This document shows, one piece after another, positions 44,204-63,738 of a stretch of DNA of 64,000 bases (within the stretch, counting starts at the first letter, position 1; the number at the start of each line of letters is the position of its first letter). Source of the DNA: Pseudomonas putida (GTDB lineage Bacteria > Pseudomonadota > Gammaproteobacteria > Pseudomonadales > Pseudomonadaceae); contig NZ_CP113097.1 in the NCBI RefSeq assembly GCF_026625125.1, forward strand, positions 2,852,001 through 2,916,000, in the 5' to 3' direction. The notes under the pieces were generated by a model that saw only the letters and a list, made by a program, of their open reading frames with translations, made no database searches and had not been told where the DNA came from. Position numbers and translations under genes: made by a program.

Positions 44204-44300
44204 TGTTAACCCTTCCTGTCGCTATATCGGCGGAAAAACGAAGTCTTTTTTCCGGGCTTATCCCGCATAAGAGTCTGTCTTCCGGTCTTATGTCACACGG
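44204..44300 (+). repeat. Candidate left end of the tni element: TGT terminus and direct repeats
   Basis: Two imperfect 25-base direct repeats start at 44243 and 44273, exactly 30 bases apart (19 of 25 match, sharing TTCCGG and CTTAT). A weaker third copy, CTTCCTGTCGCTATA, lies just left at about 44212. A TGT at 44204 precedes them. Tn7 and Tn5053-type ends carry arrays of transposase-binding repeats next to a 5'-TGT, so this may be the left terminus of the element encoding the genes to the right. No partner right end was found. Confidence 0.45.
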
Positions 44301-46978: not shown

Positions 46979-46989
46979 CTTGGAGAGCT

Positions 46990-47880: not shown

Positions 47881-48557
47881 CATTGGCGCCTTTCCAAGCC
47901 GTTGCTGTGAAAAGTGTAGTTTCTGCGCTGAAGGACGGTAGCGTGGTATGCCATTTGATGTCTGATCCTGGCAATGGTCTGACCACCTGCACCAATGCCG
48001 TTCTGAGCCAAATTACCGGCTCTACAGTCTTTGTTGGGGATCACGTAGACCTTGCGGGACTGGATTTGCTGGGTCAGTTCTATGAAGAGATACACGTTGA
48101 TTTTGAGTTTCAGCCACAGTCGGGTGTTCCTGCATTGGTTACTGAGCTTTGCGCCATGAAAGGAGATCCGACCATATTCATCCACGACTTCGAAAAATTT
48201 GCCCTCACGGCGCTTGCCAAAGAAAAGTCATTGAAGCAACTGGGATGGCTGCTGAAGGCGCTTCCTGATAGTAGTTTTGTCATCGTCAGCAGTCCTGACT
48301 ATCAGGCTGAGATGGTCGGACTGTGTCGAGCTCACGAGCGTGCCTACTCGCCTGTTGAGTTAGGGTCATTCGCGGATCGGACAGAGTTTACAGCCTTTTT
48401 TGAAGCATTGATTGATCAGAAGTCAGGACTGGGACGAGCAGCTGACAAGCTGTTGCTGCATGACATTTATCATCGACGAAACGGCAATTTGGCGTGGACG
48501 ATGCTGGAGCTCTTCCATCCAGGCTATCGCAGTCAACGGGAGTCATCCCTTCAATGA
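47877..48557 (+). CDS. Degenerate TniB-like ATPase, unknown role in the tni operon
   Basis: 226 residues between tniB and tniQ. The first 100 residues follow the pattern of a nucleotide-binding fold: a strand, then HLMSDPGNGLTT at residues 26-37 where Walker A should be, and TIFIHDFEKF as a Walker B-like strand. The invariant Lys of Walker A is Leu35, so it probably does not hydrolyse ATP in the normal way. ATGA overlaps on both sides tie it to tniB and tniQ. No name is known to me; an adaptor or target-selection role is inference. Confidence 0.75.
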   Translation: MTLAPFQAVAVKSVVSALKDGSVVCHLMSDPGNGLTTCTNAVLSQITGSTVFVGDHVDLAGLDLLGQFYEEIHVDFEFQPQSGVPALVTELCAMKGDPTIFIHDFEKFALTALAKEKSLKQLGWLLKALPDSSFVIVSSPDYQAEMVGLCRAHERAYSPVELGSFADRTEFTAFFEALIDQKSGLGRAADKLLLHDIYHRRNGNLAWTMLELFHPGYRSQRESSLQ

Positions 48558-49573
48558 ATGCTCCTGATGTCCCCATTTTTGATGGTGAGGCTTTCTCTTG
48601 CTGGGTTTACAGGCAAAGCCTATGTTCCCAGCATACATTGCTCGATAGGAGCAGGCTTGCGGAGCTTTGGCATGCGTGCGTACAGTCAGAAGACTTTGAC
48701 CCTGACTTTACGCACGATGCCAAATTCTCACGAGCGGCGTGCGAAATGCTGGATATTCCAAGGGAGGAGCAGGCAAAGATCTTCCAGCCGAATAGTCAAT
48801 GGGTTATACCTCGATACTTCAGACGCAGCTTTTGCTACAGCTGCATGAAGGAGCACATTGCGAATTTTTCACTCCCTTCATACAGGAAAGAGTGGTGCTC
48901 TGTTGGTGTGGTCGTATGTCAAATTCACAAGTGTTCCCTGCTCGATGCAAGTGGTATTGTTGCTTCAAGTCCGAGTATGGCCATGCGCATCCTCAAGGCA
49001 TATTCCGAGGATCCTTCTCAATGCGTTGCTGCGTCTCGTAGCCATGATGCTGACGAACAATTTACTGCGCTTTATAAGACTCAACTATTTTTTCAAACCT
49101 TGGAAGCTTCTCAGCAGCAAGCTGATCAAAACGGAATGTGGTCATGCAGTGAGCCGCATACGGGACTGCCACGCCTTTTGCTGTCAATTTTTTTGTATCC
49201 ACGATTTGGCTTGGTGAATCGTTTTATAGCTCCTCGAAGCTCATATCGTATTACTACCCTATTTCAACAGACTCTTAACGCTGGGCCATTGGTTGCAGGA
49301 ATAGCTCAAAGATGGGCTGGCATGCTGATGCTCGGATGGCTATTTGAGCTATTTACACCCCGCGAGAGCACTGATGTTGAATCGTTCATCGAGCGCGCAG
49401 GTGCTATAGCAGGATTTCATGATGCACGCAGCTTGGGAGCAGCATGTAATGTGTTCAATAGCCTGCACAGCGACGTTATAGCTAGACGACTGCGCGAGTG
49501 GATGCCAAATCCTAGTCCTGCTCTGTTGCAACAATTCATCGAAGGATTTTCTGAGGTATCTATTCGGTCGTGA
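48554..49573 (+). CDS. tniQ: TniQ/TnsD-family target-selection protein
   Basis: 339-residue protein. The N-terminal region has FSCWVYRQSL, a TniQ-type opening. A zinc-finger cluster follows (FCYSCMKEH near 97 and WCSVGVVVCQIHKC near 117), matching the Cys-x-x-Cys ... Cys-x-x-His pattern of TniQ. The rest is a helical, DNA-contacting region. Start at the ATG at 48554, overlapping the previous stop; the stop overlaps the next gene (GTGA). TniQ proteins choose the insertion site with TniB; the target here is unknown. Confidence 0.82.
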   Translation: MNAPDVPIFDGEAFSCWVYRQSLCSQHTLLDRSRLAELWHACVQSEDFDPDFTHDAKFSRAACEMLDIPREEQAKIFQPNSQWVIPRYFRRSFCYSCMKEHIANFSLPSYRKEWCSVGVVVCQIHKCSLLDASGIVASSPSMAMRILKAYSEDPSQCVAASRSHDADEQFTALYKTQLFFQTLEASQQQADQNGMWSCSEPHTGLPRLLLSIFLYPRFGLVNRFIAPRSSYRITTLFQQTLNAGPLVAGIAQRWAGMLMLGWLFELFTPRESTDVESFIERAGAIAGFHDARSLGAACNVFNSLHSDVIARRLREWMPNPSPALLQQFIEGFSEVSIRS

Positions 49574-50052
49574 GTATAGAATGTTTGGGAGCTGTCATGC
49601 CAGTAAAATACTCCTATATAGGGAATGTGACACTACCTTTGGGTGTTGTCGGTGTTGGAGTTGGTGGTTTGAATCATGAGGCTTGGCTTTCGTGTACCAT
49701 TTCCCTGCCAACGATACACGTCTTCCAGTACTCGATACATTGGGGCTCAAAGGCTGCGCGGGCTGAAGTCCTTCACAAAGCATGTACAGCTATTGGGTTG
49801 ATCCCAGCAGTTAAACATAGCGGTTCAAACTGGCTATTGAATCGTCAGGATATCTACTCACCCTGGCCAGCCGGTGAAGCATATCGTTCAATAAGAGAAT
49901 TTTCGGATTTCATTCTCTTTGAGTTCTATCAATGGGGGCCAGGTATGTTTGGCTCTCGCGCAGCGTTCTATCAGGCAAGCATACATAAAATTCACCTGAG
50001 GGTCGCTGCGGCTCTCGCGAAATCTCATGGTATCCGAATGGGAGCTAGTTAG
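49570..50052 (+). CDS. Last gene of the tni operon, unknown function
   Basis: 160-residue protein starting with GTG at 49570 that overlaps the tniQ stop (GTGA), so it belongs to the operon. An in-frame ATG at 49597 could also start it. It has no recognisable domain; visible are a Gly/Val-rich N-terminal strand region (LPLGVVGVGVGGLNHE) and aromatic residues throughout. Its fixed place after tniQ suggests an accessory transposition factor, by inference only. Confidence 0.65.
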   Translation: MSIECLGAVMPVKYSYIGNVTLPLGVVGVGVGGLNHEAWLSCTISLPTIHVFQYSIHWGSKAARAEVLHKACTAIGLIPAVKHSGSNWLLNRQDIYSPWPAGEAYRSIREFSDFILFEFYQWGPGMFGSRAAFYQASIHKIHLRVAAALAKSHGIRMGAS

Positions 50053-50338
50053 AGCATAGTGTCAATCGATTAATCAATCACTTGGCTTCAAGCAACATCC
50101 CAGTGCGCAACAGCGGGTAGACTTACGAGACCAGCGTTTGGCGGTCACACGCTTTGATTCCACACATTCCAGTCGAACAGACGTTTATCGCGAGAGATAG
50201 CGTCTCGCCCCCAGTCTGTGGCATATAGCCAGTAACATTGCGTTTGGCCAGGACTCCACCAAGCCAACACTGGCCAAAAGAGGCCAGAAGAAGCGAGAAG
50301 TGGCCAATAGCGCCGACAGAAGCCAGGCTTAGGGAGAA
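50053..50338. other. Gap between the tni operon and the Gabija-like genes
   Basis: 286 bases. A TGGCCA-rich stretch (50247-50330) repeats TGGCCA or GGCCAGAAG four to five times in imperfect form. The promoter of the defence pair is expected here. No gene seen. Confidence 0.45.
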
Positions 50339-52489
50339 GTGGGGATGTACCTTTCAGCGCTGTCGATCCGTAATTTCCGCCAGTTTGGCGATCTGACTCC
50401 GGGTTTCACCATCCACTTCAACGAGGGCGTCACTGCGCTTGTAGGCGAGAATGATGCCGGAAAGACTGCGGTGATCGACGCCATCCGGCATGTCCTGCAA
50501 ACCCGGGATTCAGACTTCCTGCGACTAGAGCTCGAGGACTTCCATGTCGGGAGTGACGGCGAGCCTGCGACCGACATTACTATGGTTTGCACGCTGGCAG
50601 GGCTGACCACACTGGAACTTGGAGCCTTCGCCGAATACGTCACGTTTTCACGCGGGGAGGGGCTGCTTCATGTGCACTGGTCGGCGCGTCGACTCGCGAT
50701 GCCGACAGCGTCGCGTCGCTGGGTGGACATCCAGGTTCGCTGTGGTGAGCGGGGAGAAGGGCCTGCCTTGGACGTCGGCGCGCGCCAGTTGCTGGCAACC
50801 GCATACCTGAAGCCATTGCGAGATGCCGAACGGGAGATGTCACCGGGTCGCAACTCGCGCTTGTCCCAAGTCCTGTCGAGCTTCCCGGGTATAGACGCCG
50901 GTGAGTCCTATGTCGATATCGCTCCACCGGCGTCGGCAGCTGAAGCCACTGGCCTGAGCATTGCGGGCATGGGTGATTACATGCGCGAGCTGGTCAGAGG
51001 ACATCAAGCCATCAAGGTTGCCCAGGCGACAATCAACGACCGATATCTGGAGCCTCTCTCTTTAGCAGGACAGCCGCTTCATAGCCATCTTGGCTTCGGC
51101 GATACCGGCAGTGAAACCACAAAGCTCAAGCAGATCCTTGAGCGCCTGGAGTTGGGTTTGCTGGACAAGGGATCGGGGAATGCGAGGGGGAGCTATGGTC
51201 TGGGCTCGAATAACCTGCTGTTCATGGCCTGCGAGCTCTTACTGCTCGGCAAGGAACCGGATGGGCTGCCGCTGCTGCTGATCGAGGAGCCGGAGGCGCA
51301 TCTTCACCCGCAGCGCCAACTTAGACTGATGGAGTTCCTCGAGCGCGCATCGCAGCCTCGCCCCCAACAGCAAAATCAAACCCAACAGCAAGATCAAACA
51401 CAACAGCAAGATCAAACACAACAGCCAGATCAAGCCCAAGCGGAACCAGCGCATACACGTCCCGTGCAGGTGATCCTCACCACACACAGTCCCAACCTGA
51501 GCTCTAAGATTGCCTTGGAGAATCTGGTGCTCATTCATGGCCAGCGTGCCTTCTCCATGGCACAGGGGCGAACCAGGCTGTCCGCTGACGACTATCGCTT
51601 CCTGAGTCGTTTTCTGGATGTCACCAAGGCCAGCCTGTTCTTTGCGAAAGGGCTGCTCATCGTTGAAGGGGATGCAGAGGCGATCCTGCTGCCGGCACTG
51701 GCCAGGCTGCTTGGGTGTGACTTGACCGAGCATGGTGTGTCAATCGTCAATGTGGGTGGCGTTGGCTTACGCCGTTACGCACACATCATGCAGCGAGCTG
51801 ATGCGACAGAGGGAATAATCCAGATCCCAACGGCCTGCATCACCGACATGGATGTGATGCCGGATTGCGCGCCGGCCATCATGGGGCTGGATCCGCACAA
51901 GCTCAACGCCAAGGGTAAACCGGCGCGTCGTCAATGGCGGATGCTCAGTGACTTTGGCGCTACCGAGATTGAGCGCGAACCGAAGCTTGCGGCTCATCGT
52001 CAGAAACGGACACGTGGCGATGGCCAAAACGTGAAGACCTTCGTGGCCGATCATTGGACGCTCGAGTATGACCTGGCTGTCGAAGGGCTTATGGACTGGG
52101 TACACCGTGCCGCCACGTTGGCCTTACATGATGTAAAAATGAACGAAAAAAAGCTGACGCGACAGAAAGTCCTCGAGAGGGCGACGAAGGCGCTGGCGGC
52201 ACTTAAGTCTCAGTATCTCACCAATGAAGAGCGTGCCACCGAGGTTTACCGGCAGGTTGATTCGGGCTCCAAGTCGATTACTGCACAGCATCTGGTCGAC
52301 CTGCTGCAGTCGGCATTTGATGAAGGTGAACTCGACCGGGCAAGCTTGCGTGCAGCGTTACCGGCCTACGTGATTGAAGCGATCGAATACGCCACAAGAG
52401 GCCGGATCATGCCTTCGGCGCCGGAGCAGCCGGCCACAAACACCGCGGAGACGCCGCTAGAGGCGCTTGAAGCAGGGGAGTTGGCGTAA
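50339..52489 (+). CDS. gajA: OLD-family nuclease, Gabija GajA-like
   Basis: 716-residue protein with an N-terminal SMC/RecF-type ATPase (Walker A GENDAGKT at 36-43; LLLIEEPEAHLHP at about 312-324; THSPN H-loop) and a C-terminal TOPRIM nuclease (LIVEGDAEAIL near 441, DMD near 503). This is the OLD layout. It is followed by a UvrD-type helicase, the pair that defines Gabija anti-phage defence. It is longer than typical GajA (about 580), partly from a Gln-rich insertion between Walker B and the H-loop (residues 343-366). Start at the ATG at 50339; an in-frame ATG at 50345 also possible. Confidence 0.82.
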   Translation: MGMYLSALSIRNFRQFGDLTPGFTIHFNEGVTALVGENDAGKTAVIDAIRHVLQTRDSDFLRLELEDFHVGSDGEPATDITMVCTLAGLTTLELGAFAEYVTFSRGEGLLHVHWSARRLAMPTASRRWVDIQVRCGERGEGPALDVGARQLLATAYLKPLRDAEREMSPGRNSRLSQVLSSFPGIDAGESYVDIAPPASAAEATGLSIAGMGDYMRELVRGHQAIKVAQATINDRYLEPLSLAGQPLHSHLGFGDTGSETTKLKQILERLELGLLDKGSGNARGSYGLGSNNLLFMACELLLLGKEPDGLPLLLIEEPEAHLHPQRQLRLMEFLERASQPRPQQQNQTQQQDQTQQQDQTQQPDQAQAEPAHTRPVQVILTTHSPNLSSKIALENLVLIHGQRAFSMAQGRTRLSADDYRFLSRFLDVTKASLFFAKGLLIVEGDAEAILLPALARLLGCDLTEHGVSIVNVGGVGLRRYAHIMQRADATEGIIQIPTACITDMDVMPDCAPAIMGLDPHKLNAKGKPARRQWRMLSDFGATEIEREPKLAAHRQKRTRGDGQNVKTFVADHWTLEYDLAVEGLMDWVHRAATLALHDVKMNEKKLTRQKVLERATKALAALKSQYLTNEERATEVYRQVDSGSKSITAQHLVDLLQSAFDEGELDRASLRAALPAYVIEAIEYATRGRIMPSAPEQPATNTAETPLEALEAGELA
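51365..51436 (+). repeat. Four 18-bp tandem repeats in the OLD nuclease gene
   Basis: Units CAACAGCAAAATCAAACC, CAACAGCAAGATCAAACA (twice) and CAACAGCCAGATCAAGCC. They code for the hexapeptide Gln-Gln-Gln-Asp-Gln-Thr and variants and lie exactly in frame, in a loop between ATPase motifs. Copy number could vary by slippage. Confidence 0.9.
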
Positions 52490-54483
52490 TGCGGCTCCAG
52501 GATCTTGTGCCTCCAGTCACGGATGCAGACATCGAGTGGGTGAGCGCGCTTATGTCGTTGCGCGACCTGGATGAACCTCGGAGGGAGTTCCTCAAGCGTC
52601 TCGATACGCTCGATGTAGCGGCCTGCCCGGGGAGCGGTAAGACCACCCTCGTGGTTGCCAAGCTGGCCATTCTTGGTCGTCATTGGCGTAGTCGAACGCA
52701 GGGGATCTGCGTGCTATCGCACACCAATGCAGCGCGTGAGGAAATTGAGAGCCGGCTGGGCGCCACAGAGATTGGCCAGAGGCTGCTGCGCTACCCACAT
52801 TTCATCGATACCATCCACGGTTTTGTCATGCGGTTTCTTGCGTCGCCCTGGCTGCGCTCGAATGGCCACCCGCTGACGGTGGTGGATGACGAGGCAACCG
52901 GGCGAGCAAGGGGAAGGGCGCTGGGAAAAGATCGTTGGGGTGTAGAGTACTTTCTCGATCAAAAAGAAAAGACGCTCGCTGATCTTCGACTGCCCTCGGT
53001 CGATTTTTCTACCCCTCTTCAAGGTAAGCATTACATTTGCTCGCCAGATGCACCTACTCATGGAAAGTTATGCAGAGCCATGGGCGCTGCCGCTTCGGAA
53101 GGCTACTTCTGCTATGACGAGGTTTTCACGCTTGGCCAGGCCATGATTGAGCAAGAACCGAATGTTGCTCAATCGCTGCAAGCCCGGTTCCCCTGTGTAC
53201 TCATCGACGAAATGCAAGACACGGACTTGGAGCAGAATCGCCTTTTGAACCACGTATTTCCGCGCGATGCAGCGAATACAGTGGTGATCAGGGTGGGCGA
53301 TCCCAATCAGCAGATATTCGAGGGTGACGGAGAGTCTGATGGGGCATTCCCGCATGGCGGGACAATCGAGATCTCCACAAGCTTTCGATTCAACCAGGCC
53401 ATTGCCACGCTGGCAAACAGCTTTGCAGTCGCTCCCATTACGGGCGGATTGGTCGGTCGGGCCAGAACGGGTGAAGACTGTCCCAACACCCTTTTTGTCT
53501 TTCCAGACGACGATACGAGCGGTGTGCTTGGCGCATTTGCAGAGCTTGTGTCACGGCATGTACCCATCACCCAGCGCAAGGATGGGGTGCATGCGCTCGG
53601 TGCTGTTCACCGACTGAGGAAGTACAAGGACAACCAATTCCCGAAGGCCCTGGAGCACTATTGGAGCGCCTACCGCTCAGACGCTAATGGCTCGACGTAT
53701 GCGCCCAAGACATTCATTGACGGTGTTCGCAGGGCCAGAGCCCACCTGGCGATCAGCGGTCACGCGCACGAAAGCGTTGAGATGATCGCGAGGTGCCTGC
53801 TCCATCTCGCTGAGCGTGCTGGGTTGAGGACGCCAGTCCAGATCAGAACAAGGCTACACCGCTACATCGAGCGAAGCTTGGCAGCTAACGCGAAGCTTCT
53901 CAAAGCCTACCAGCGAGGTATCTACCTCTACTTGTTCTATCCGCATCCACTACGAGAGAAGCGGTGGGTTGAGACCCACGTTGGGCTCCTCAAGCGGCTG
54001 ATCCAGGAGCTGCATCCTGGGGAGGAGGTTTCAATGACTACCGATGTGGAAGCCTATCTGGCGTGGGCAGAACCAGGCGATACGGTCGAGGTCGAGTCGC
54101 AGGTGCCCCGCAAAACCATTAACACATACCGATGGGAGGCCGGGGGGCACGAGCCTGTCGACGTTCAGCTGGCGTCCATGCACTCCGTCAAAGGGAAGAC
54201 GCATTCGGCGACGCTGATCTTGGAAACGTTCAGTGGACAGCACTTTCTGGAAATGATGTTGCCCTGGCTTGAAGGAAAGCCCTTGGTTAAGAAAGAACAT
54301 CAGGTGACTTACCGGAAAAACAGGATGCTCATGTATGTCGGCATGACTCGGCCTACGCATCTGCTTTGTCTGGCGATTCGAAGCAGCGCGCTGGGTGAGG
54401 GGGAGGCGAGAGTTGAGCGAAGGGCGGCCCTGCAGGCACAGGGCTGGGTGATCAATGAGTTGGATGCGAGAGCGGCAAGCTGA
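52489..54483 (+). CDS. gajB: UvrD/Rep-type helicase, Gabija GajB-like
   Basis: 664-residue superfamily 1A helicase. Motifs in order: VAACPGSGKTT (Walker A, about 44-54), SHTNAAREE, LIDEMQDTD (motif II, near 240), GDPNQQIFEGD (III), SFRFNQ (IV), MHSVKGKTH (V) and YVGMTRPTH (VI). All are intact. Its ATG overlaps the OLD nuclease stop by one base (TAATG), so the two are translated together. It acts with the OLD nuclease in anti-phage defence by family association. Confidence 0.85.
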   Translation: MRLQDLVPPVTDADIEWVSALMSLRDLDEPRREFLKRLDTLDVAACPGSGKTTLVVAKLAILGRHWRSRTQGICVLSHTNAAREEIESRLGATEIGQRLLRYPHFIDTIHGFVMRFLASPWLRSNGHPLTVVDDEATGRARGRALGKDRWGVEYFLDQKEKTLADLRLPSVDFSTPLQGKHYICSPDAPTHGKLCRAMGAAASEGYFCYDEVFTLGQAMIEQEPNVAQSLQARFPCVLIDEMQDTDLEQNRLLNHVFPRDAANTVVIRVGDPNQQIFEGDGESDGAFPHGGTIEISTSFRFNQAIATLANSFAVAPITGGLVGRARTGEDCPNTLFVFPDDDTSGVLGAFAELVSRHVPITQRKDGVHALGAVHRLRKYKDNQFPKALEHYWSAYRSDANGSTYAPKTFIDGVRRARAHLAISGHAHESVEMIARCLLHLAERAGLRTPVQIRTRLHRYIERSLAANAKLLKAYQRGIYLYLFYPHPLREKRWVETHVGLLKRLIQELHPGEEVSMTTDVEAYLAWAEPGDTVEVESQVPRKTINTYRWEAGGHEPVDVQLASMHSVKGKTHSATLILETFSGQHFLEMMLPWLEGKPLVKKEHQVTYRKNRMLMYVGMTRPTHLLCLAIRSSALGEGEARVERRAALQAQGWVINELDARAAS

Positions 54484-54602
54484 CCCACGGTTGATATGCC
54501 CGGTAAAACCCGGAGACATTGTCATCATCGTTGATCTCACGGGAAGGCATGGTGAAGCGATCGGGTGGAAAAATTCCCACCCGTTTCGCTTCGTCTGGCC
54601 TA
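54484..54602. other. Convergent junction of the two defence operons
   Basis: 119 bases between the tail-to-tail ends of the helicase gene and the HNH gene. A GGGTGGGAA/TTCCCACCC hairpin-like region (54565-54586) may end transcription from one or both sides. Confidence 0.5.
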
Positions 54603-55550
54603 TTAGCTCTGCACCAGCTCGAACGTGCGACCCGATAGGGCACCATGCAGGCTTTTCAAGGCGCTCTCCAGTTCACTGCCTTCCTCAACCTCGAACTGCT
54701 CAATGGTTTCCAGCGAGCTTTTGAGGTCGGCGTTCGCGTTCACAATCACTTCCTTACCCGCGATTTTGTTCAGCAGATCCTCACACAGCTTCTGCCCTTG
54801 CGGCGTGATGCCTCGGTATAGCGTGACGCTGTGATCATTGGTTTGCACCCGAATGAAGCGAACATGATCGTCGAAGCGATGGAAGCGAGGGTGGAACATT
54901 TCCGTGAAAGAATTGGGCGCAGGGTACGCCTCCAAGCCCTGTTTGGTGGGGCTGGCCCAGTCGTCGTCAGTCTTCAAACTGTTGCAGTCAACGCAGGCGA
55001 CCGACAGGTTCCAGAAGTGGAAGGAATATTGTTCGTAGCTTTCGCGTGGAAGGATGTGCTCGATTGGCTTCGAGTAACCGCTGTTGAATAACCACCGCCG
55101 GCAGTAGCAGCAACGGTTACCTTGCTGCTTAGCGATGTACTGCCTGAAAGCCCCCTTGATGTCACTGACGGTCGGCTTCGCTGGGCCTCGCTTGCGCTTG
55201 GGCGTCTCAGCAGGTGCAGGGGAACCTGCAGCTCCCGCCTCAGGTGAGCCAGGTGCAGCGATCGTGCCGGGTGCAGCGACCGTGCCAGGGGCGGCGATCG
55301 CGCCAGGCGCTGCGGCCACTGTAGCTGCAGGCACCGGCTTTTTAGGATTCGAAAATTCGTTCCAGAGGTTTCGCTTCTTGATTGCTTCGCCAGCCTGTCT
55401 TGCCTTGAATCGCTGCAGAGCCATCACGTGGAAACGGTGAATGTTGAACATTACGACCTTATGGAAGCGCTCCTCGGCATGGCACTGCGCCTTGTACTCG
55501 TCGTAGGCAGGCTTCATGTCGGCATCTTTCAGCACATAGTAATCCGCCAT
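54603..55550 (-). CDS. HNH endonuclease with Pro/Ala-rich linker, Septu PtuB-like
   Basis: 315 residues. The N-terminal helical part (about 1-70) is followed by a low-complexity linker rich in Ala, Pro and Gly (about 70-120), then an HNH nuclease of the retron/Septu type (CCYCRRWLF, EHILPRES, then ACVDCNSLK, about 147-195) and a C-terminal helical domain. The zinc Cys pairs and the His of EHILPR are present. The ATG at 55550 is one base after the ATPase stop (TAG, C, ATG), so the two are coupled. ATPase plus HNH is the Septu pattern; assignment to that system is inferred. Confidence 0.75.
   Translation of the reverse strand: MADYYVLKDADMKPAYDEYKAQCHAEERFHKVVMFNIHRFHVMALQRFKARQAGEAIKKRNLWNEFSNPKKPVPAATVAAAPGAIAAPGTVAAPGTIAAPGSPEAGAAGSPAPAETPKRKRGPAKPTVSDIKGAFRQYIAKQQGNRCCYCRRWLFNSGYSKPIEHILPRESYEQYSFHFWNLSVACVDCNSLKTDDDWASPTKQGLEAYPAPNSFTEMFHPRFHRFDDHVRFIRVQTNDHSVTLYRGITPQGQKLCEDLLNKIAGKEVIVNANADLKSSLETIEQFEVEEGSELESALKSLHGALSGRTFELVQS
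55249..55320 (-). repeat. Four 18-bp tandem repeats in the HNH gene linker
   Basis: Four imperfect 18-bp units starting at 55249, 55267, 55285 and 55303 (CCAGGTGCAGCGATCGTG type). On the coding strand they give Ala-Pro-Gly-Thr-Val-Ala-like hexapeptides forming the linker. In frame and exactly periodic. Confidence 0.85.
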
Positions 55551-55551
55551 G

Positions 55552-57873
55552 CTACACCTGAGCCTCGTCGGTACGTTTGCTTGCCGCTTCCTGGTCGACC
55601 AGTAGCAACTCAATCGCGGTGTAGGCCTTCTTGATCAGGTCGATGTCCTCTTCCTGACCTGGAGGTACGTATGCTCCAGGTTGAGTCGGCATCTTCTTGA
55701 GCATGTCATTCAGCTCTTTGAGAGGTGAGGGCTGGTCAGCTCGAAGCTTGCCTTTTGTTTCAATCGTTTTGGCAACGATACGAGCGCAGGCCTCATGCAC
55801 CGCGCGGTTGTGAGGGGTGTAGGTACCGAAGCCTTCCAGAATGATCGACTCAACGGAGTACCGCTCCTTGTCAGTCAGCTTCGGCAATTTGCCCGTGTCG
55901 AGCAAGAAGCTGTGACTGCCTTGGTCGTTCGCATTGGTGATGAGGGTCGGAGCATGGGTTGCGACGACGAATGAGCAACCGAAGCGGCGGGAGAGCAGGT
56001 GGAACACCCTTGGAAGTGTCTGCTGCCATTTCAGATGCAAGCTGATTTCTGGCTCGTCTACCAGAAAGACCGTCCCTGGTTCGGCTGACGTGATGATGTT
56101 GAGCAGCAACTGGTTGATGTTTTGCTCTCCAGAACTCAGCGATGAGTAGGAGACAATCCGCTCCTTTTGATCGTCAATCGCTGGGCGCACGACGCCGAAC
56201 TCGTATTTGGCCAGCTCGTCAGGAACATGGTTATCCGCAGCGTGATCTGACATCCTCAAGGTGCGAATTTCATTAGGGGCATTGTCCAGTGCCATTTCTG
56301 GCCGAAGCATGAAGTAGAAGCGTGGGGCGAAGCCCAGGCACGTTTGGCACTCTTTCAAGGCCTCAAGCATGTGCTGATCGACGAAGACCCTGGCCGCCAA
56401 GGCGGTTACGGCTTTGGTCAACCTGGAGGGTGAGATGGCATCTGCACTGGTGCGGGCACCGCGATACTCAAAACGTTTGTATTGTTGGCTGCGTCCGAGC
56501 GGGAAACGATCATGTACCCCTGTCGAGATGCCAACAGTTCTGCGATCAAGCTCACCGACCCTGTCGATGAGTTCACACAGCAACTGGGTCTTCCCTGCAC
56601 CGTTGTTACCAATGATATAGATGCAGGCAGGCTCAGTCGGATCGCTCAAAAGCTTGAGAATGTCTTGTGGGTTGGCCGCAAGGTTGAAAACACTTCCCTG
56701 AAGCTGATTGGTTCGGATGAAGTTTTTGGGCGAATAGATTTTCCAGGCTTCCTGATGCTCGCTTTTGTCCTCGATACACAGCCCCTTTACATCCTTGAAA
56801 CCATCTGAAAACTGTGCATTCAAGATAGTTTCGACCTTCGGAGGAATGCTCCTGGGCAGGTCGTCGATGTTGCGTGATTCATGGATGTTAAAGATATGAC
56901 CGGCTAGGATCGCGCGTTCTTCAAGATCCAGCCGCTCCAGGGATTTATTAGCGTTTGAGACGTCGATGTACAGCGCTGGCTTGCGCATCAAGTGAATATG
57001 CTGGCTAAAAATCAGCAGGACTTGGTCATGCGCGGCGGCTGTCGCTTCGCTGGAGCTAAAACAGATAGCAGCGTCTAACCGCAGACCGTTGAAGATCGCC
57101 GGTGCAAGCTCTTTACGTAGTCCGCCGTACTTCGCTTTGCTGGCTGGCAGTACAAGCATGAATCGCGCAGGTTGAGGGTACTGTAAGGCAAATGCGGCGA
57201 GGTTGATGAGTCCCGTCACGGCAGTGAATTTGAATTGCGGGCCAGCGTCAACGAGGTAGCTCGGCTGACTGTCGGCGACCCTGTCAGGAACGTGACGATG
57301 AATAAAGTCAGGGTAGATCTGGTTGATGATGAGTTTTAAGGAAATCAGCGCCTTCAAAGCAGCAGAGGTCGGGGACAGCATCGGGAAAGAACTGCTGTCT
57401 ATTTCAGAGGACTTTCCAATAGACAGCTCAGCCGTCGTCGGCGCAATCTCGACAATAGGCGAGTACAAGGTGGAATGAATACTTCCGACCAAGGCTGCGA
57501 CCACCATTGGATGGCTCGGGGCAATCTTGTAGAACTCAAAGATGAAGAGATCAATGAGATGTGTCGCCGTTTTTACCCTGACCTCCCGATCCATCGTGTC
57601 ACTAGACACCGCTCGGATGTGCAGCAGCTTTTCGTTGAACGCTGCCCTGACGTCTGTATCATCGAATTCGTTTAGCTTCATCAGCTCGGTTACATGTACC
57701 CTGGCATCCTCAAAACTGCTTCGGTACCTGTCTTCCAGGATCAGCCCCTTCGTCAGGTGCAACGCGGCGAGGAGATTGATTTTCTCTGATGAAATGTTTG
57801 GGAAGCTACGTCCTACGTTAAGCATTTCTTCAGCGATCAGGCGAGTGATCTCCCGGCCTTCGTCGTATTCCAT
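55552..57873 (-). CDS. AAA ATPase with N-terminal methylase-like region, Septu-like
   Basis: 773 residues. The C-terminal half is an SMC/RecF-like ABC ATPase: Walker A GNNGAGKT (near 420), signature LSSGEQNINQ (near 577), Walker B FLVDEPEISLH (near 598), and THAPTLITNAN. The first about 200 residues are helical and unrecognised. Residues about 210-325 follow the order seen after the catalytic motif of N6-adenine methylases (RFMLVLPASKAKYGGLRKEL, then DQVLLIFSQ, then ALYIDVSNANKSL), yet no NPPF-type motif or SAM loop is visible. Together with the HNH gene it resembles Septu PtuA-PtuB, but is longer. Confidence 0.75.
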   Translation of the reverse strand: MEYDEGREITRLIAEEMLNVGRSFPNISSEKINLLAALHLTKGLILEDRYRSSFEDARVHVTELMKLNEFDDTDVRAAFNEKLLHIRAVSSDTMDREVRVKTATHLIDLFIFEFYKIAPSHPMVVAALVGSIHSTLYSPIVEIAPTTAELSIGKSSEIDSSSFPMLSPTSAALKALISLKLIINQIYPDFIHRHVPDRVADSQPSYLVDAGPQFKFTAVTGLINLAAFALQYPQPARFMLVLPASKAKYGGLRKELAPAIFNGLRLDAAICFSSSEATAAAHDQVLLIFSQHIHLMRKPALYIDVSNANKSLERLDLEERAILAGHIFNIHESRNIDDLPRSIPPKVETILNAQFSDGFKDVKGLCIEDKSEHQEAWKIYSPKNFIRTNQLQGSVFNLAANPQDILKLLSDPTEPACIYIIGNNGAGKTQLLCELIDRVGELDRRTVGISTGVHDRFPLGRSQQYKRFEYRGARTSADAISPSRLTKAVTALAARVFVDQHMLEALKECQTCLGFAPRFYFMLRPEMALDNAPNEIRTLRMSDHAADNHVPDELAKYEFGVVRPAIDDQKERIVSYSSLSSGEQNINQLLLNIITSAEPGTVFLVDEPEISLHLKWQQTLPRVFHLLSRRFGCSFVVATHAPTLITNANDQGSHSFLLDTGKLPKLTDKERYSVESIILEGFGTYTPHNRAVHEACARIVAKTIETKGKLRADQPSPLKELNDMLKKMPTQPGAYVPPGQEEDIDLIKKAYTAIELLLVDQEAASKRTDEAQV

Positions 57874-58082
57874 GTGACGCTCTCATTTTCCAATGTGTTA
57901 AGGGATGGTGGCTGTTTGGCATGATCCGACAGCCTGAGTCCGCAGGCAAGCGGGTCTCTAATGGAGAAGGAGCGAGCCGCTATATGGCGCGCAAAAGTGC
58001 TATGCAGGGAAGAGATTTGCGTGGACGAGACTGGGAGCAGATCCTTGCGGCAGCCCCCAGTTTGAAGGCGTTAGTGCATGGG
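57874..58082. other. Gap upstream of the ATPase gene
   Basis: 209 bases between the ATPase gene and the small gene upstream. A plus-strand open frame of 65 codons overlaps the small gene and is taken as chance. The ATPase promoter may lie here. Confidence 0.4.
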
Positions 58083-58376
58083 TTATTCGCCGATGGTCTG
58101 GCCAAGCTTGCTGGTTAACAGCTCGTAGAACTTCTCGCGACTACGAGGATTTTTGAGTTCGGCACAGGCTTCGTCCAGCGCCTGAATTGCCTCGTCGTGG
58201 GTGATCTCGTCATCATCGATCAAAGGCTTGAGCTTCGTCTTGTAGATGTAGCTCAACTCGTTGTAATCCTCACACTGAGCGCACGACACCAGTGAGGCGT
58301 CTCGCTTACCGCCTGGGTTCTCATCCTTGTAGCTGTATTTGGCGTTGATGTCGCTGATGGTCTTAGCCTTGGCCAT
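58083..58376 (-). CDS. Small conserved-looking protein, 97 aa, upstream of the ATPase
   Basis: 97 residues, same strand as the ATPase-HNH genes and 209 bases upstream of them. It has one Cys-x-x-Cys pair (VSCAQCEDYNE, about residue 31) and then long charged helices (DDDEITHDEAIQALDEAC, LKNPRSREKFYELLTS). The family was not recognised. It may be a regulator or third component of the defence module, or unrelated. Confidence 0.6.
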   Translation of the reverse strand: MAKAKTISDINAKYSYKDENPGGKRDASLVSCAQCEDYNELSYIYKTKLKPLIDDDEITHDEAIQALDEACAELKNPRSREKFYELLTSKLGQTIGE

Positions 58377-58789
58377 GTCTTACGTTCCTGAGCCGGGCGA
58401 TCCTGGGAAATCCTTATCGCATCCGGTAAGCCAGACGTGGTGGCTATCTGCTGGTATTCAAGTCGCAGACACAAACGATTACCACTGTGACGGTTTGATG
58501 TCTGGCCAAGCCTACGTAACAGGCAATGAGAGCATTGCTCTGTACCGTGATTTTGGAGGGCCTGTTTTGGCGTGCATAGCAGGATTTAGCGTGTGAGTAT
58601 GAATGCCCCTCGGCTTTGTACGAAAAGTGCCTGCGCGCCGATCATGCTGCGTTGAATACAGGCTCGGAATGCTCATTTGCCACCAGCAAAGTCGAGCGCG
58701 ACTCCGACCGTTCCTCGCCTGTTTTCGCCTTGCCTGATCGCCGCTCGGCGACTTTTCGTACAAACCCTAGCATCGCTAACAGGAGCAGC
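58377..58789. other. Region between the 97-aa gene and the small membrane gene, with an inverted repeat
   Basis: 413 bases with no clear gene. It contains the 14-bp inverted repeat described at 58615-58764, and the promoters of both flanking, divergent genes. Confidence 0.5.
58615..58764. repeat. 14-bp perfect inverted repeats bounding 150 bp
   Basis: TTTGTACGAAAAGT at 58615-58628 and its exact complement ACTTTTCGTACAAA at 58751-58764, 122 bases apart. The right arm ends 25 bases before the start of the small membrane gene. It could be an invertible segment, a MITE-like insert, or paired sites for a recombinase; no target duplication is seen. Confidence 0.7.
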
Positions 58790-59056
58790 ATGACCATGAA
58801 AGCCATCCATAACCGCATTATCGAAAACCGTCTGGCCAAGCGACTTGTGGCCTGGGCCTTGATTCCGCTATGTCTCATCCAGGCGGGAGACGAATCTCGT
58901 AACCTCATACGCATAACGTACGGCCTGACGGTTGAGCAGGGGGTTGCTGAAACACTTCCCTACATTGTCTGCTGCGCATTGGTAGTAGCGATCACTGCAC
59001 AAGCTAAGAAGGTAGCGCGAGCGCTGCGTGGACAGCACCGGCTGCTTGGCCGCTGA
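58790..59056 (+). CDS. Small membrane protein, 88 aa
   Basis: 88 residues with two hydrophobic segments (LVAWALIPLCLIQA, about 15-28, and TLPYIVCCALVVAITAQA, about 55-72) and a basic end. AGGAG precedes the ATG at 58790; an ATG at 58796 is also possible. No family recognised. It stands alone, divergent from the defence operon. Confidence 0.55.
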   Translation: MTMKAIHNRIIENRLAKRLVAWALIPLCLIQAGDESRNLIRITYGLTVEQGVAETLPYIVCCALVVAITAQAKKVARALRGQHRLLGR

Positions 59057-59198
59057 CTGGCTTCACATGCGACTGAATGCAGGCGCATCGTCTGGATAGC
59101 TGAGGCGTCGATCGTGAAGGTTCAGGCAGGGTGGGATCTGTTGACCCCACTCCGGTTACAGAGTGAGGTCTGGGAAGCCCCCTACCATTGGGAGAGGT

Positions 59199-59828
59199 TT
59201 AGTGAGGGCGTGGGTACCAGTTACTGTCGCCAGGACGGATATGGCCTGGGCAGTACCCATATCTGATTCTGAGTTCGGCTTTCTGCTCCTGGTACATGCC
59301 CCCCAGGGTATCCTGGATCATGGAAACATAAGCTTCGAAAGACGGGTGCTTGCGCCAGTAGTTACCATAGATCGCATGGGCGAGGGAGCGGTCATACCAA
59401 CCACGCACAAGCAGTAGCACGCCTTCGATCCGTGCCTCCAAGCCCTGATCCGAGAAAGCCTGTTTACTTCCCCTGTCTTTCATCTGCTCGCGCAGCACAA
59501 AATTTGCTGGGCAATAGCCCATCGCCTCGCTTGCCTCATGAAATTGCTCATGCACTTCACGGTGAGATTCGCGATCTTCTTTGAGGTCGAAGGCGAAGCT
59601 GTAATCGCAGAGGGAACACTTGCTAACGCCATGAGGGTCAGGAGAGACGTGCACATGGAGCATGATCCACTTGTCATAAAGGCGGATCGCCTCATGGTAA
59701 TTTCTGACGCCTAATTCCTGGACTGCAGCTTTGTCTTGACGCTGACCCAGCTTTAGCCAGGGGTAGGTGTCTTTCAATTCCTTGGCGACACGTTTGACTT
59801 GCTTGATGTGGCTGGAGGTGACTTGCAT
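59199..59828 (-). CDS. Hypothetical protein with Cys/His pairs, 209 aa
   Basis: 209 residues. The N-terminal helical part (SSHIKQVKRVAKELKDTYPW) followed by QDKAAVQELGVRNYHEA recalls the N-terminal region of Glyoxalase-related plasmid proteins, a loose resemblance only. At about residues 70-97 a CSLCDYSFAFDL segment followed by HREVHEQFH forms a C2H2-like zinc site. The C-terminal half is aromatic. Start at the ATG at 59828, the first Met before the conserved-looking helix. Confidence 0.6.
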   Translation of the reverse strand: MQVTSSHIKQVKRVAKELKDTYPWLKLGQRQDKAAVQELGVRNYHEAIRLYDKWIMLHVHVSPDPHGVSKCSLCDYSFAFDLKEDRESHREVHEQFHEASEAMGYCPANFVLREQMKDRGSKQAFSDQGLEARIEGVLLLVRGWYDRSLAHAIYGNYWRKHPSFEAYVSMIQDTLGGMYQEQKAELRIRYGYCPGHIRPGDSNWYPRPH

Positions 59829-60058
59829 TTTTTCAGCTCTCGGGAGGGCTGGCCTGGCGTCCACTACGAGGCAACCTGATTGATGTCAGGTCGGGTAATT
59901 CAACTGTCACGATAGTGCTAGAGCTTCGCTGGTGTGGACTGCAGGCACCTACCGAGTACCTGGCCGCGGAGACTAGCACTGGTGTGGCTGCTTGACAATC
60001 CGTTGTGCCGCCCTGGTGTCCAGAAGCAATGACTGCTGGGTGGTGGTGTTTGCCGTAA
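59829..60058. other. Gap without a recognised gene
   Basis: 230 bases between two minus-strand genes. No gene, terminator or repeat was recognised. Confidence 0.4.
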
Positions 60059-60499
60059 TTACCAATGCCTCGCCACCGTCTGTTTGGAAACGCCTAGCTC
60101 CCGAGCCACCTCAGCCTTGGTCAGCCCTTGGCCCCTCAGGCGTTGAACCTCTTCCCGGCGCTCATTGGCCGCTGCCACCCGGGAGTGTGTCCTGGACTCT
60201 GGCTTGATCGCGAGCGGGGCTATCGACCCACCCAGGGTAGCCACCTCTTTAGACACCTGCTTCAACAGTTCCGTAGGGCGAACGACCTCATCAGCGCCGT
60301 ATGCCAGTGCGAGAAGGGTGAGGGGATGCACACCAAGCTGTCGCGCGATCGCATCGAGCTTTTCCACCGTAACCCCACGCTCACTGCGCTCGACGCGACT
60401 GAGGTGGGCGGCGGTTACGCCTTCCTCAAGATCGGTCAGCAGTATTTGCTGTTGCTGGCGAACGTGGGTCAGCGCTGCGGCGATCGCTTGCCTGAGCAT
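60059..60499 (-). CDS. XRE-family regulator with a second C-terminal HTH
   Basis: 146 residues. An N-terminal Cro/C1-type helix-turn-helix (about 10-65: LTDLEEGVTAAHLSRVERSERGVTVEKLDAIARQLGV) is followed by a hinge and then a second helix-turn-helix at the very end, LTKAEVARELGVSKQTVARHW, like the DNA-binding tail of recombinases. Two HTH units in one short protein are uncommon. A 12-bp palindrome lies 42 bases upstream, so it probably regulates itself and the divergent metallophosphoesterase genes. Confidence 0.8.
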   Translation of the reverse strand: MLRQAIAAALTHVRQQQQILLTDLEEGVTAAHLSRVERSERGVTVEKLDAIARQLGVHPLTLLALAYGADEVVRPTELLKQVSKEVATLGGSIAPLAIKPESRTHSRVAAANERREEVQRLRGQGLTKAEVARELGVSKQTVARHW

Positions 60500-60540
60500 T
60501 CGGGCGTATCCCTAAAATCCGACTGTATGCCCGGTTTGCG

Positions 60541-60580
60541 CAGTTCCACTCAATGTCGTATAGTCAAATGAGTGGAACTG
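60541..60580. promoter_or_regulatory. 12-bp palindromic operator between XRE and metallophosphoesterase genes
   Basis: CAGTTCCACTCA-N16-TGAGTGGAACTG, perfect arms. The spacer contains GTATAGT, which could be a -10 box for one direction. It lies 42 bases upstream of the XRE start and 121 bases before the metallophosphoesterase ATG. Confidence 0.75.
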
Positions 60581-60700
60581 TCGCGATTTGCTGCGCGTGC
60601 GGAAGACCAGATCGGCCTGTCCACACGCAAGCCAGGGGCGATTTCAATATATCGCTTAATCGAAATTACGGGACTGAAAGTCAGTCCTGCGGGTAGCTGC

Positions 60701-61426
60701 ATGAAAATTTTGGTGTATTCCGATTTACATACCGAATTCGAAGATTTCACGCCGCCGGCGACGGGTGCTGATGTGGTTATTTTGGCAGGGGACATCGGTG
60801 TGAAAACTCGGGGCGTGCAGTGGGCAAACGCTGCGTTCGGTTGTCCTGTCATTTACGTCTGCGGTAACCACGAATTTTACGATGGCCACCTCGAAAGAAC
60901 GCTTGAGGAGATGAAGGCGGTCGCAGCGTCGCATGTACATGTCTTGGAAAACGAGTGTTGGATTTGGAATCAAACCCGGTTTCTGTGCGCCACTGCCTGG
61001 ACTGACTTTTCATTGACGGGTTCGACAGACATTGCCATGCGCAGGGCTGCTGAACGGATGAATGATTTTCGGGTGATTCGGACTGGAGCAGACAATCGCC
61101 GCTTGCGACCTGAAGATGTGGCTGTACGTAACCTGGCGTCACGCACTTGGCTTTCCCAGGAGCTCAGCAAACCCTTTGCAGGACTTACCGCAGTGGTAAC
61201 TCACCATGCTCCGTTGGTCGGTGTTTTGAATGGCCCTCGTGACCACCTTGATGCGGCGTATGCCAATCACTGGCCGGATCTCGTTCACCAGGCAGATCTT
61301 TGGGTTTTCGGCCATACGCATTGTCCGGTCGACCTCATGGAGCGTGACTGCCGTGTGGTGTCGAACCCAAGAGGCTATCCGGGGGAGCGACTGCAGTTTC
61401 GCTCTGATTTTGAGGTTGAGATCTAA
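60701..61426 (+). CDS. Metallophosphoesterase 1
   Basis: 241-residue calcineurin-like phosphoesterase. All metal-binding motifs are present: YSDLH (Asp-x-His), AGDIG, CGNHEF, VVTHHAP and FGHTH, so it should hydrolyse phosphoesters; substrate unknown. No signal peptide. Start at the ATG at 60701 just before the first motif; longer frames run through the promoter. The stop overlaps the next ORF by one base (TAATG). It is paralogous to the gene at 63010. Confidence 0.85.
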   Translation: MKILVYSDLHTEFEDFTPPATGADVVILAGDIGVKTRGVQWANAAFGCPVIYVCGNHEFYDGHLERTLEEMKAVAASHVHVLENECWIWNQTRFLCATAWTDFSLTGSTDIAMRRAAERMNDFRVIRTGADNRRLRPEDVAVRNLASRTWLSQELSKPFAGLTAVVTHHAPLVGVLNGPRDHLDAAYANHWPDLVHQADLWVFGHTHCPVDLMERDCRVVSNPRGYPGERLQFRSDFEVEI

Positions 61427-61782
61427 TGACTGCAGGCACCGATCTGGGTTACCTGATCAAGACGTTTGGCGCCACAAAGGCAGACGTTACCTTCAATCGG
61501 CTTCCTAAAGTTATCCAGGCCGCCAGGGAGGTGATATCCGATGACGAAGTCGTTGGCTATCTGATGTGCGCGCTGGACAAGCCGCCGCAGATGACCGGCC
61601 TGATCTTTTGCGACTATCGCCATGACTTCCCAGAGGGGCTGCCGATGTGGACGCCCCCAGTGGTAGAGCGTCTCTATCGGGGAGGTTACCTGGTTGTGCG
61701 AGCACAGGGCGGCGGGCTGTATGTGATTGCCCATTGGTTTTACGAAAACGGCGGTTTACGTCCGTTCTTTGAGGTGCATTGA
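61426..61782 (+). CDS. Hypothetical protein, 118 aa, coupled to metallophosphoesterase 1
   Basis: 118 residues starting in a TAATG overlap with the phosphoesterase stop, so probably translated with it. It has no recognised domain. The C-terminal part is aromatic and hydrophobic, with LYVIAHWFYENGGLRPFFEV near the end. It is soluble by appearance, with no signal peptide. Confidence 0.55.
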   Translation: MTAGTDLGYLIKTFGATKADVTFNRLPKVIQAAREVISDDEVVGYLMCALDKPPQMTGLIFCDYRHDFPEGLPMWTPPVVERLYRGGYLVVRAQGGGLYVIAHWFYENGGLRPFFEVH

Positions 61783-61783
61783 G

Positions 61784-62125
61784 ATGGATGACCAATGGGA
61801 CGAGCCAGGTCGGCAGCGCGCAGCCGCAGCCTGTGGCGAGCCTGAGTGCGTTACTCGGGCGCGCGCTACCGGATTTGCATCATTGGTCACGGGGTACCTG
61901 TACCACACCGCGATTGATCTGCATCTAGGCTGCTTGGTTGGCATCGTTTACGGCGAGCGTCGAGGCCGCTTTGAGGATAGCGCCGTCATCCGAAGTTCTC
62001 GGTTAGAGGGTGGTTGGGAGCAGGAGGGATTTCGGCTTTATCGCACCGTGAACGGGAGCCTCTATTTCGTCTGTGACTGGGCCTCTGTGGAGCTCAACTC
62101 ACGTTTCGCAACATTCAGTTGTTGA
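61784..62125 (+). CDS. Hypothetical protein, 113 aa
   Basis: 113 residues, two bases after the previous stop, same operon. Opening MDDQWDEPGRQRAAA, then an aromatic stretch with LYHTAIDLHLGCLVGIVYGE and a C-terminal FRLYRTVNGSLYFVCDW. Three to four Cys are spread through the protein. No family recognised. Confidence 0.5.
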   Translation: MDDQWDEPGRQRAAAACGEPECVTRARATGFASLVTGYLYHTAIDLHLGCLVGIVYGERRGRFEDSAVIRSSRLEGGWEQEGFRLYRTVNGSLYFVCDWASVELNSRFATFSC

Positions 62126-62545
62126 GCGTAGCGGTGCTTGAATCGGTTCATAGGGGCTAGAAGGTCGACTGAAGAGGAGAGGGAGGTGACGGCATTCCTG
62201 TAATCGTTGAAGACCGTCTCATGCGTTGACGGAAGGGTGTCGGCGCCGCCATCTGAGGTTATCGACCGGCCTGGTTATCGAGCCGCAAAAACAGCTGCGG
62301 CATCCGTACACGCGTGGGTAGCGATTCAACAGACAGCAGGTGGCGTCAGTTTAATGATGCGAATCTGACAACGCTCGCTATCACACCAGATTCTCAAGAC
62401 ACGAGCTGCTGGCCTGAGCGTCGATGGGGCGTTGAGAAGCTTGCAAACAAATTTACTCGGCGGCGAGGGTAACCCTTGTTAGCCGACTGCGATAGAGGCG
62501 ACTAAGCATTCAGTCGTCGGGCCTGATGATGAGAAAGGTGGGACG
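62126..62545. other. Gap of 420 bases without a recognised gene
   Basis: Both strands show only short frames. Presumably it holds the promoter of the next operon at its right side. GC-rich with no repeat or terminator that stands out. Confidence 0.4.
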
Positions 62546-62971
62546 GTGGAAGCAGCACAGTTGGCGTACTTTTTACTCCACGGCGCAGAGCACGTAGAAG
62601 GACTGGCATCTTCGGACGATCAGTTGATTGAATTAGCAAAGACCCGTTCGGGAGACAAGCCTTACTGCGTGATCAGGAGTTGGATTTTGCTTGATGTGAT
62701 GGTGTCTCACACCGACGAGAAGACTCTGCAGGCGCAAGGTCTTCAACCTACCGTGTTATTGGGACGGGAAATCATTTTCGACAGTCGCACCCAGTGCTCA
62801 CGGCCAGGCGGGCTGAGATCCAGCTTTCTTTACTCGCAGGTAGGGTCGGTGTTCGAAAGCAAAGACACGCTGTATTACCTGGCGGGGCCCGGCTTTCGCA
62901 ATCACACCAGTCTCACAGCTGTACTGACGCTCGATAACGTTGGGTGGCGGGTGACCCAGGACGCAATGTGA
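62546..62971 (+). CDS. DUF6957-like hypothetical protein
   Basis: 141 residues starting with GTG at 62546, which has AGGTGGG 5 bases before it. It resembles a family of small proteins found in Pseudomonas accessory regions (my recollection of DUF6957), with YCVIRSWILLDV, a QGLQPTVLLGREIIFDSR block and LYYLAGPGFR near the end. Function unknown. It ends 38 bases before the second metallophosphoesterase gene. Confidence 0.55.
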   Translation: MEAAQLAYFLLHGAEHVEGLASSDDQLIELAKTRSGDKPYCVIRSWILLDVMVSHTDEKTLQAQGLQPTVLLGREIIFDSRTQCSRPGGLRSSFLYSQVGSVFESKDTLYYLAGPGFRNHTSLTAVLTLDNVGWRVTQDAM

Positions 62972-63009
62972 AGCGACGACCTGATACTAACGACACGGAG
63001 CCTGGGTAA

Positions 63010-63738
63010 TTGAAGATAGCGATCTACTCTGATTTGCATCTGGAATTTTCTGAGTTCGAGCCTCCTCCGGTCGAGGCTGATGTGGTTGTACTCGCGGGCG
63101 ACATTTCGGTGCGAAGCCTCGGAGTGACGTGGGCAAATCAGACATTCAAATGCCAGGTGATCTACGTCTGCGGCAACCACGAGTTTTACAAGGGGCACAT
63201 TGATCGAACGCTTACCAAGATGCGAGACGCAGCCGAGCCGCATGTGCGCATCCTGGACAACCAGAGCCTCGTCATCGGGGGCACTCGGTTTCTGGTGGCG
63301 ACTGGTTGGACAGACTTCACCTCGACCGGGGACTACAGAGCAGCGATGAGGGAATGTGCGCAATGGATGAACGACTTCAAACGAATCCGCATCGGGGACG
63401 GTTATCGCAAGCTCAGACCCGCCGACCTCATTGCCCGGAACATCGCTACCCGCGAGTATCTCGCCTGCGAACTCGCTAAGCCGTTTGACGGCAAGACGGT
63501 AGTTGTTACACACCACTGCCCGATAGCTGAGGTCGCCGGGGATGGCCATGAAGGCCACCTAGCGGCGGCTTACTCCAACCAATGGCACGATTTGCTTGAG
63601 CTCGCGGATGCATGGATCTTTGGTCACACGCACCATGCTGTTGATACAAGTGTCTCCGGCTGCAGACTCGTCTCAAATCCGAGGGGATATCCTGGTGAGC
63701 GAACAGGATTTGCCGCAGATTTCATGATGGAGATCTGA
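63010..63738 (+). CDS. Metallophosphoesterase 2
   Basis: 242 residues, closely related to the gene at 60701: identical motif order YSDLH, AGDIS, CGNHEF, VVTHHCP and FGHTH, and nearly the same length, with matching stretches such as VIYVCGNHEFY in both. Start reads as TTG at 63010, so it is probably weakly translated or initiated by coupling. It is likely active by motif content. Two copies 1.6 kb apart suggest duplication or import as a set. Confidence 0.82.
   Translation: MKIAIYSDLHLEFSEFEPPPVEADVVVLAGDISVRSLGVTWANQTFKCQVIYVCGNHEFYKGHIDRTLTKMRDAAEPHVRILDNQSLVIGGTRFLVATGWTDFTSTGDYRAAMRECAQWMNDFKRIRIGDGYRKLRPADLIARNIATREYLACELAKPFDGKTVVVTHHCPIAEVAGDGHEGHLAAAYSNQWHDLLELADAWIFGHTHHAVDTSVSGCRLVSNPRGYPGERTGFAADFMMEI

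Follow-up and report, generated by a model that had tools for sequence, protein, structure and literature searches.

The Septu system of Escherichia coli requires its ATPase and its HNH residues and cleaves tRNA-Tyr (PMC13096335; this and the other papers named below are cited from excerpts of their text). In Septu type II, which PADLOC describes with a reverse transcriptase (RT; PMC8565338), and in retron I-A (Ec78, Ec83), PtuA plus PtuB again form the effector, which a separate module, the RT with its multicopy single-stranded DNA (msDNA), neutralises; in retron Eco7, where PtuAB is held back in this way, its action results in the loss of tRNA-Tyr (PMC11555353). A PtuA-like ATPase also occurs within another defence-like operon, ptuXYZ, with DUF262 and PIN-YoeB partners, and the excerpts of PMC11980606 name neither HsdM nor HNH there. 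Here we describe a two-gene cassette in a 64,000-nt stretch of Pseudomonas putida DNA (contig NZ_CP113097.1, positions 2,852,001 to 2,916,000; hereafter the window), which encodes, as Septu does, a PtuA-like ATP-binding cassette (ABC) ATPase and then a PtuB-like HNH protein, both with intact motifs, and in which, different from the PtuA models (375-548 aa) among the 25 PADLOC families listed, about 390 residues of a dead HsdM-type methylase stand before the ATPase. By its parts the cassette is probably a variant of Septu, with a putative role in defence. The preliminary description of this DNA had proposed such a fusion next to an HNH gene as an undescribed Septu variant; PADLOC, fold alignment and motif counts bear out the arrangement, and no account of an HsdM-PtuA fusion was found in searches of the open-licence PMC literature.

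The two genes and their parts (SAM, S-adenosylmethionine; HMM, hidden Markov model) are:

55552..57873, minus strand: gene 1, 773 aa, in which a degenerate HsdM domain is fused to a PtuA-like ABC ATPase
56689..57873, minus strand: degenerate HsdM domain, residues 1-395
57466..57873, minus strand: N-terminal helical part, HsdM-like, residues 1-136
57421..57456, minus strand: decayed SAM motif I, residues 140-151, IVEIAPTTAELS; HsdM counterpart DPxCGSG
57238..57261, minus strand: decayed motif IV, residues 205-212, SYLVDAGP; HsdM counterpart NPPF
56881..57168, minus strand: second half of the methylase core, residues 236-331, the best-aligned HMM-HMM columns
56707..56820, minus strand: HsdM-type tail, residues 352-389, NAQF..GFKDVKGLC..YSPKNFI; HsdM counterpart GLCKVA...SLNPGRYV
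55555..56688, minus strand: PtuA-like ABC ATPase, residues 396-773 (PADLOC PtuA 1.3e-30, AAA_21 4.1e-13)
56587..56610, minus strand: Walker A, GNNGAGKT, residues 422-429
56122..56139, minus strand: ABC signature, LSSGEQ, residues 579-584
56047..56070, minus strand: Walker B, VFLVDEPE, residues 602-609
54603..55550, minus strand: gene 2, PtuB-like HNH protein of 315 aa (PADLOC PtuB 7.3e-26), its ATG 1 nt past the stop of gene 1
54966..55112, minus strand: HNH motif, CCYC...IEH...N...CVDCN (Pfam HNH at residues 147-195, below cut-off)

The first 390-395 residues of gene 1 were left unnamed by the Pfam, PADLOC and NCBIfam models. Residues of about 210-325 had been read beforehand as the second half of an N6-adenine methylase, from peptides that lie at 241-310, and this segment proved real but only half of what is present. 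Foldseek and VIA-align on the second of two structure models gave an HsdM fold, with the chains at ranks 1-14 aligning from model residue 2-12 onwards, and profile-profile (HMM-HMM) comparison with HsdM-type methylases agreed and held against shuffled and reversed controls; a chance resemblance of residues 210-325 was ruled out by the profile comparison and structure alignment together. A complete predicted HsdM lies ahead of the ATPase, from the helical domain (residues 5-136; helices 6-23, 29-40, 48-64, 73-89, 96-115 and 121-133) through the motif regions (about 140-151 and about 205-212, with a strand at 205-209 at the motif IV site) and the second half of the core (strands 236-243, 264-273, 283-291 and 300-304) to the tail at 352-389, into which profile matches extend elsewhere and in which C366 is kept in 58 of 60 aligned relatives. 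The best-matching structures include HsdM subunits solved with Ocr or ArdA (7eew, 7bto, 7bst, 2y7c). The entire fold is thus as in HsdM (EcoKI, EcoR124I, 3khk), whereas here the SAM and NPPF motifs are lost, an ATPase is fused, and no HsdS is found nearby, nor in 9 of the 17 genomes that carry the gene. Residues 7-56 also gave a sub-threshold Pfam match to ZapA, with a weak ZapA-like match in 11 of 30 members, which is perhaps helical similarity alone.

Relatives were collected by protein searches that returned 17, 25 (8 new) and 22 proteins, with about 8,000 candidates scored each. Sixty full-length fused proteins were aligned; several are near-identical, so the 60 sequences are not 60 independent observations. 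Two partial proteins (P0024, 423 aa; P0047, 637 aa), a 130-aa frame (L124/G1261) and an AbiJ-related Shewanella protein matching in the ATPase only (P0025) were left out of the counts, L135-L140 were left out as duplicates of L003-L008, and L132, which has an internal stop, was left out of the alignment and retained for its HNH partner and as a carrier (G1341).

Both catalytic motifs of the methylase are gone. Within the domain, neither the glycine pattern [CG].?G[ST]G nor [NDS]PP[FYWH] occurs in any of the 60 aligned fusions, so the earlier reading of gene 1 as lacking NPPF and SAM motifs holds for the whole alignment. SAM motif I was present in 21 of 24 HsdM controls; these had been picked for containing NPP[FYWL], which makes their NPPF count circular, and it was not used. 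An open reading frame (ORF) bearing NPP[FYWL] was found at 24 of 25 PF02384 loci. Remnants can still be aligned: motif I, DPxCGSGGFL in HsdM, reads ExxPxTAELS in the query and EAFALTGEFL in the L008 group, and motif IV, NPPF in HsdM, reads D[AS]GP or D[AS]P in the fusions, with DSPF in two members. As judged from these motifs, the domain is probably unable to bind SAM or to methylate. Position 142 is E/D in 60/60 and position 149 is E in 55/60; at position 209, 54 members have D, 4 have N and 2 have E. This retention of acidic residues at the former sites of the cofactor and the base suggests that the dead pocket may be reused as a site. In all of 59 comparisons the HsdM domain has diverged more quickly than the ATPase, with pairwise identity down to 13% among members, and its net charge (KR minus DE) ranges from -17 to +11, compared with -29 to -5 for the 24 whole HsdM controls. 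Faster divergence and lower acidity fit a sensor of DNA or of a DNA mimic, but also relaxed constraint.

The motifs of the ATPase and the nuclease are, by contrast with those of the methylase, intact. Walker A, signature and Walker B are present in all 60 fusions (K428 in 60/60), and the C-terminal half of gene 1, which had been called SMC-like, is indeed an ATPase fused to the methylase fold but is better termed PtuA-like, the next PADLOC match after PtuA being AriA (1.8e-15). At 17 loci (the window and 16 others) an HNH gene stands next to the ATPase gene in 16, the remaining locus lying at a contig end, and the two genes, taken as longest ORFs, overlap or are at most 13 nt apart. The HNH residues are intact in 16 of 16 aligned partners, among them that of L139, which the initial HNH pattern had missed. 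Flanking genes, inspected by eye, mostly differ between loci; L125 and L135 have common flanks. One of the 17 ATPase genes, in L132, is disrupted by an in-frame stop. The gene pair is also carried without host type I genes: no PF01420 (HsdS) match lies near the cassette at the 17 loci, PF02384 and PF01420 matches co-occur in the same 8 of the 17 carrier genomes, far from the cassette, and the other 9, including the genome of the window and that with the broken copy, have no match to either family.

The full protein was found in 7 of 398 genomes of a family sample (E 1e-20 or better) and the N-terminal domain in 13 of 398 genomes of a genus sample (E 1e-8 or better), each count including the window's genome; all of these belong to the genus of the window, and organism-named protein matches are from Pseudomonas or Ectopseudomonas, the sole exception being P0025. 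Scans with the domain profile, beyond the window gene, gave 3 of 398 phylum-sample and 2 of 390 order-sample genomes (four loci in total, each with an NPPF-bearing ORF), and 37 of 303 non-self genomes of the class sample, where the inspected matches of 14 genomes comprised 14 frames with NPPF or NPPY and none with such an ATPase; a further 293-aa frame in L156 matches the profile and has neither NPPF nor NPPY. All 18 inspected out-of-genus loci are N6-methylase genes with NPPF or NPPY, the matches reach the HsdM tail at all four phylum/order loci and at 7 of the 14 class loci (GLCKVA...SLNPGRYV being read in L035 and L038), and no fused protein was found outside the genus in these three partly overlapping samples. 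The 60 ATPase domains group in a single clade that excludes 70 viral ABC ATPases (support 1.0 in a midpoint-rooted tree), a result favoured by the gathering of the 60 by similarity. No carriage by phages or plasmids came to light: among 50,697 phage records 2 match, in the ATPase part only, and none of 44 matching plasmid records does so across 80% of the query. The HsdM domain occurs in 0 of 74 viral loci, which were found by two ATPase peptide patterns blind to the domain.

We favour, at a probability of roughly 60%, a stand-alone two-gene Septu variant in which the HsdM-derived domain is the input module of an ATPase-controlled HNH nuclease. The domain would engage a ligand related to phage, either DNA or a methylase-targeting protein; this would alter the ATPase, which until then would keep the HNH nuclease inactive, and the released nuclease would cut nucleic acid and halt the infection. 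Control of the nuclease by the ATPase, and a role in defence, would be as described for PtuAB and retrons; we infer both the sensor function of the HsdM domain and the nature of its ligand. The simplest reading, by analogy with Septu type II and retron I-A, is that the fused HsdM domain would replace RT-msDNA as the controlling module. No reverse transcriptase was found in a Pfam scan of ten window proteins. The fused dead methylase looks to have been turned into a sensor or regulator of its partner nuclease; recognition of DNA or its methylation had been suggested for it, and a role as regulator or decoy suits it no less well. Several observations weigh against this interpretation: Foldseek on the first structure model gave no significant match, the close clade alone (25 sequences) is weak in the HMM-HMM comparison (probability 18-35, E 4.1e-4 to 1.3e-3), the best PADLOC PtuA match is limited to residues 567-729, short of full-length agreement with the known models, and the faster divergence of the domain could reflect relaxed constraint.

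Two alternatives are narrower versions of the favoured reading and overlap it. HsdM contacts DNA within its complexes, and the domain might still bind DNA, perhaps by methylation state, and bring the HNH nuclease to phage DNA. We regard this targeting role as possible but somewhat unlikely: motif IV, which in HsdM holds the flipped base, is lost, the gene 1 protein showed no target-recognition domain, and the HsdM-derived domain, though less acidic than the HsdM controls, is overall near neutral rather than basic. The Septu of E. coli ATCC25922 is, for its part, reported to be active on nicked DNA (cited in PMC11555353).

Alternatively, the dead HsdM may be an integrated decoy that baits anti-restriction proteins (Ocr, ArdA, Stp-like), whose binding would free the ATPase and the HNH nuclease. 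PARIS has no HsdM domain and pairs AriA with the TOPRIM nuclease AriB, different from the HNH/PtuB-like partner here. AriA is the closest solved ATPase by sequence to gene 1 (2.5e-16) and senses Ocr (PMC12409349). In PrrC-EcoprrI a nuclease is restrained by a type I methylase complex (PMC3874165, PMC12409349) and is activated by Stp acting on EcoprrI, although there the restriction-modification (RM) enzyme is active and separately encoded. Ronin, an RM-like system minus its restriction part and plus a toxin, RonA, has modification subunits proposed to sense anti-restriction proteins, and the excerpts name no Septu parts in it (PMC12409349). A bait requires no SAM site, its faster divergence would be in keeping with such a role, its lower acidity would go well with an acidic binding partner, for instance a DNA mimic, and the top structural matches include HsdM-Ocr/ArdA structures, which partly reflects what has been solved. 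Ocr, however, occupies the DNA groove of a methylase core that includes HsdS (PMC3874165), and PF01420 is missing near all 17 loci and from 9 of the 17 genomes; we consider the decoy unlikely.

It is more doubtful still that the domain merely oligomerises or docks the HNH protein, with no sensing. It is fused directly to the ATPase and is present in all 60 aligned members, though these were gathered by similarity; but a PtuA with its Walker A lysine at residue 43, and hence no such domain ahead of its ATPase, still defends (PMC13096335), and the former cofactor and base sites retain acidic residues (142 E/D in 60/60, 209 D/N in 58/60).

HsdM normally partners HsdS, and the domain could in principle use HsdS to join a type I enzyme of the host, like PrrC with EcoprrI. 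This is very improbable, and dependence on host HsdS or HsdM was rejected, given the 9 of 17 carriers, the window's genome among them, that have neither family. A still active methylase with atypical motifs, for which Asp/Asn at the NPPF position in 58/60 and DSPF in two members might speak, was rejected as almost certainly wrong on the absence of the SAM glycine pattern and of an NPPF-type motif in 60/60.

Other genes of the window near the cassette are:

50339-54483, plus strand: complete Gabija pair, GajA (3.5e-190) and GajB (6.7e-154) by PADLOC, convergent with the Septu variant
45116-49573, plus strand: Tn7/Tn5053-like module, lying immediately upstream of the defence genes

The module consists, in order, of a 620-aa DDE transposase-like protein, a 296-aa TnsC-like ATPase, a 226-aa gene with no Pfam family, and TniQ; TniQ was called by Pfam, the transposase and TnsC-like proteins by eye. 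Window positions 43400-63300 are nearly absent from a genome of the same species (G295; three short matches), and Pseudomonas sp. NBRC 111124 (L002) carries a 100%-identical gene 1 with HNH and Gabija genes adjoining. Two similar metallophosphoesterase-like genes, recognised by eye, lie near each other at 60572-61426 and 63010-63738.

Septu, whose trigger is poorly known, gains a variant with a recognisable putative input module, in which a methylase stayed ahead of the ATPase after losing its catalytic motifs, despite identities within the domain down to 13%. If the domain senses anti-restriction proteins, the cassette would parallel PrrC-EcoprrI and Ronin within a single polypeptide. Plant immune receptors carry integrated decoys, and the decoy reading, if true, would provide a bacterial parallel: a copy of a phage-attacked methylase built into a Septu ATPase, so that disabling restriction would trigger a second line of defence, a prospect we advance only tentatively.
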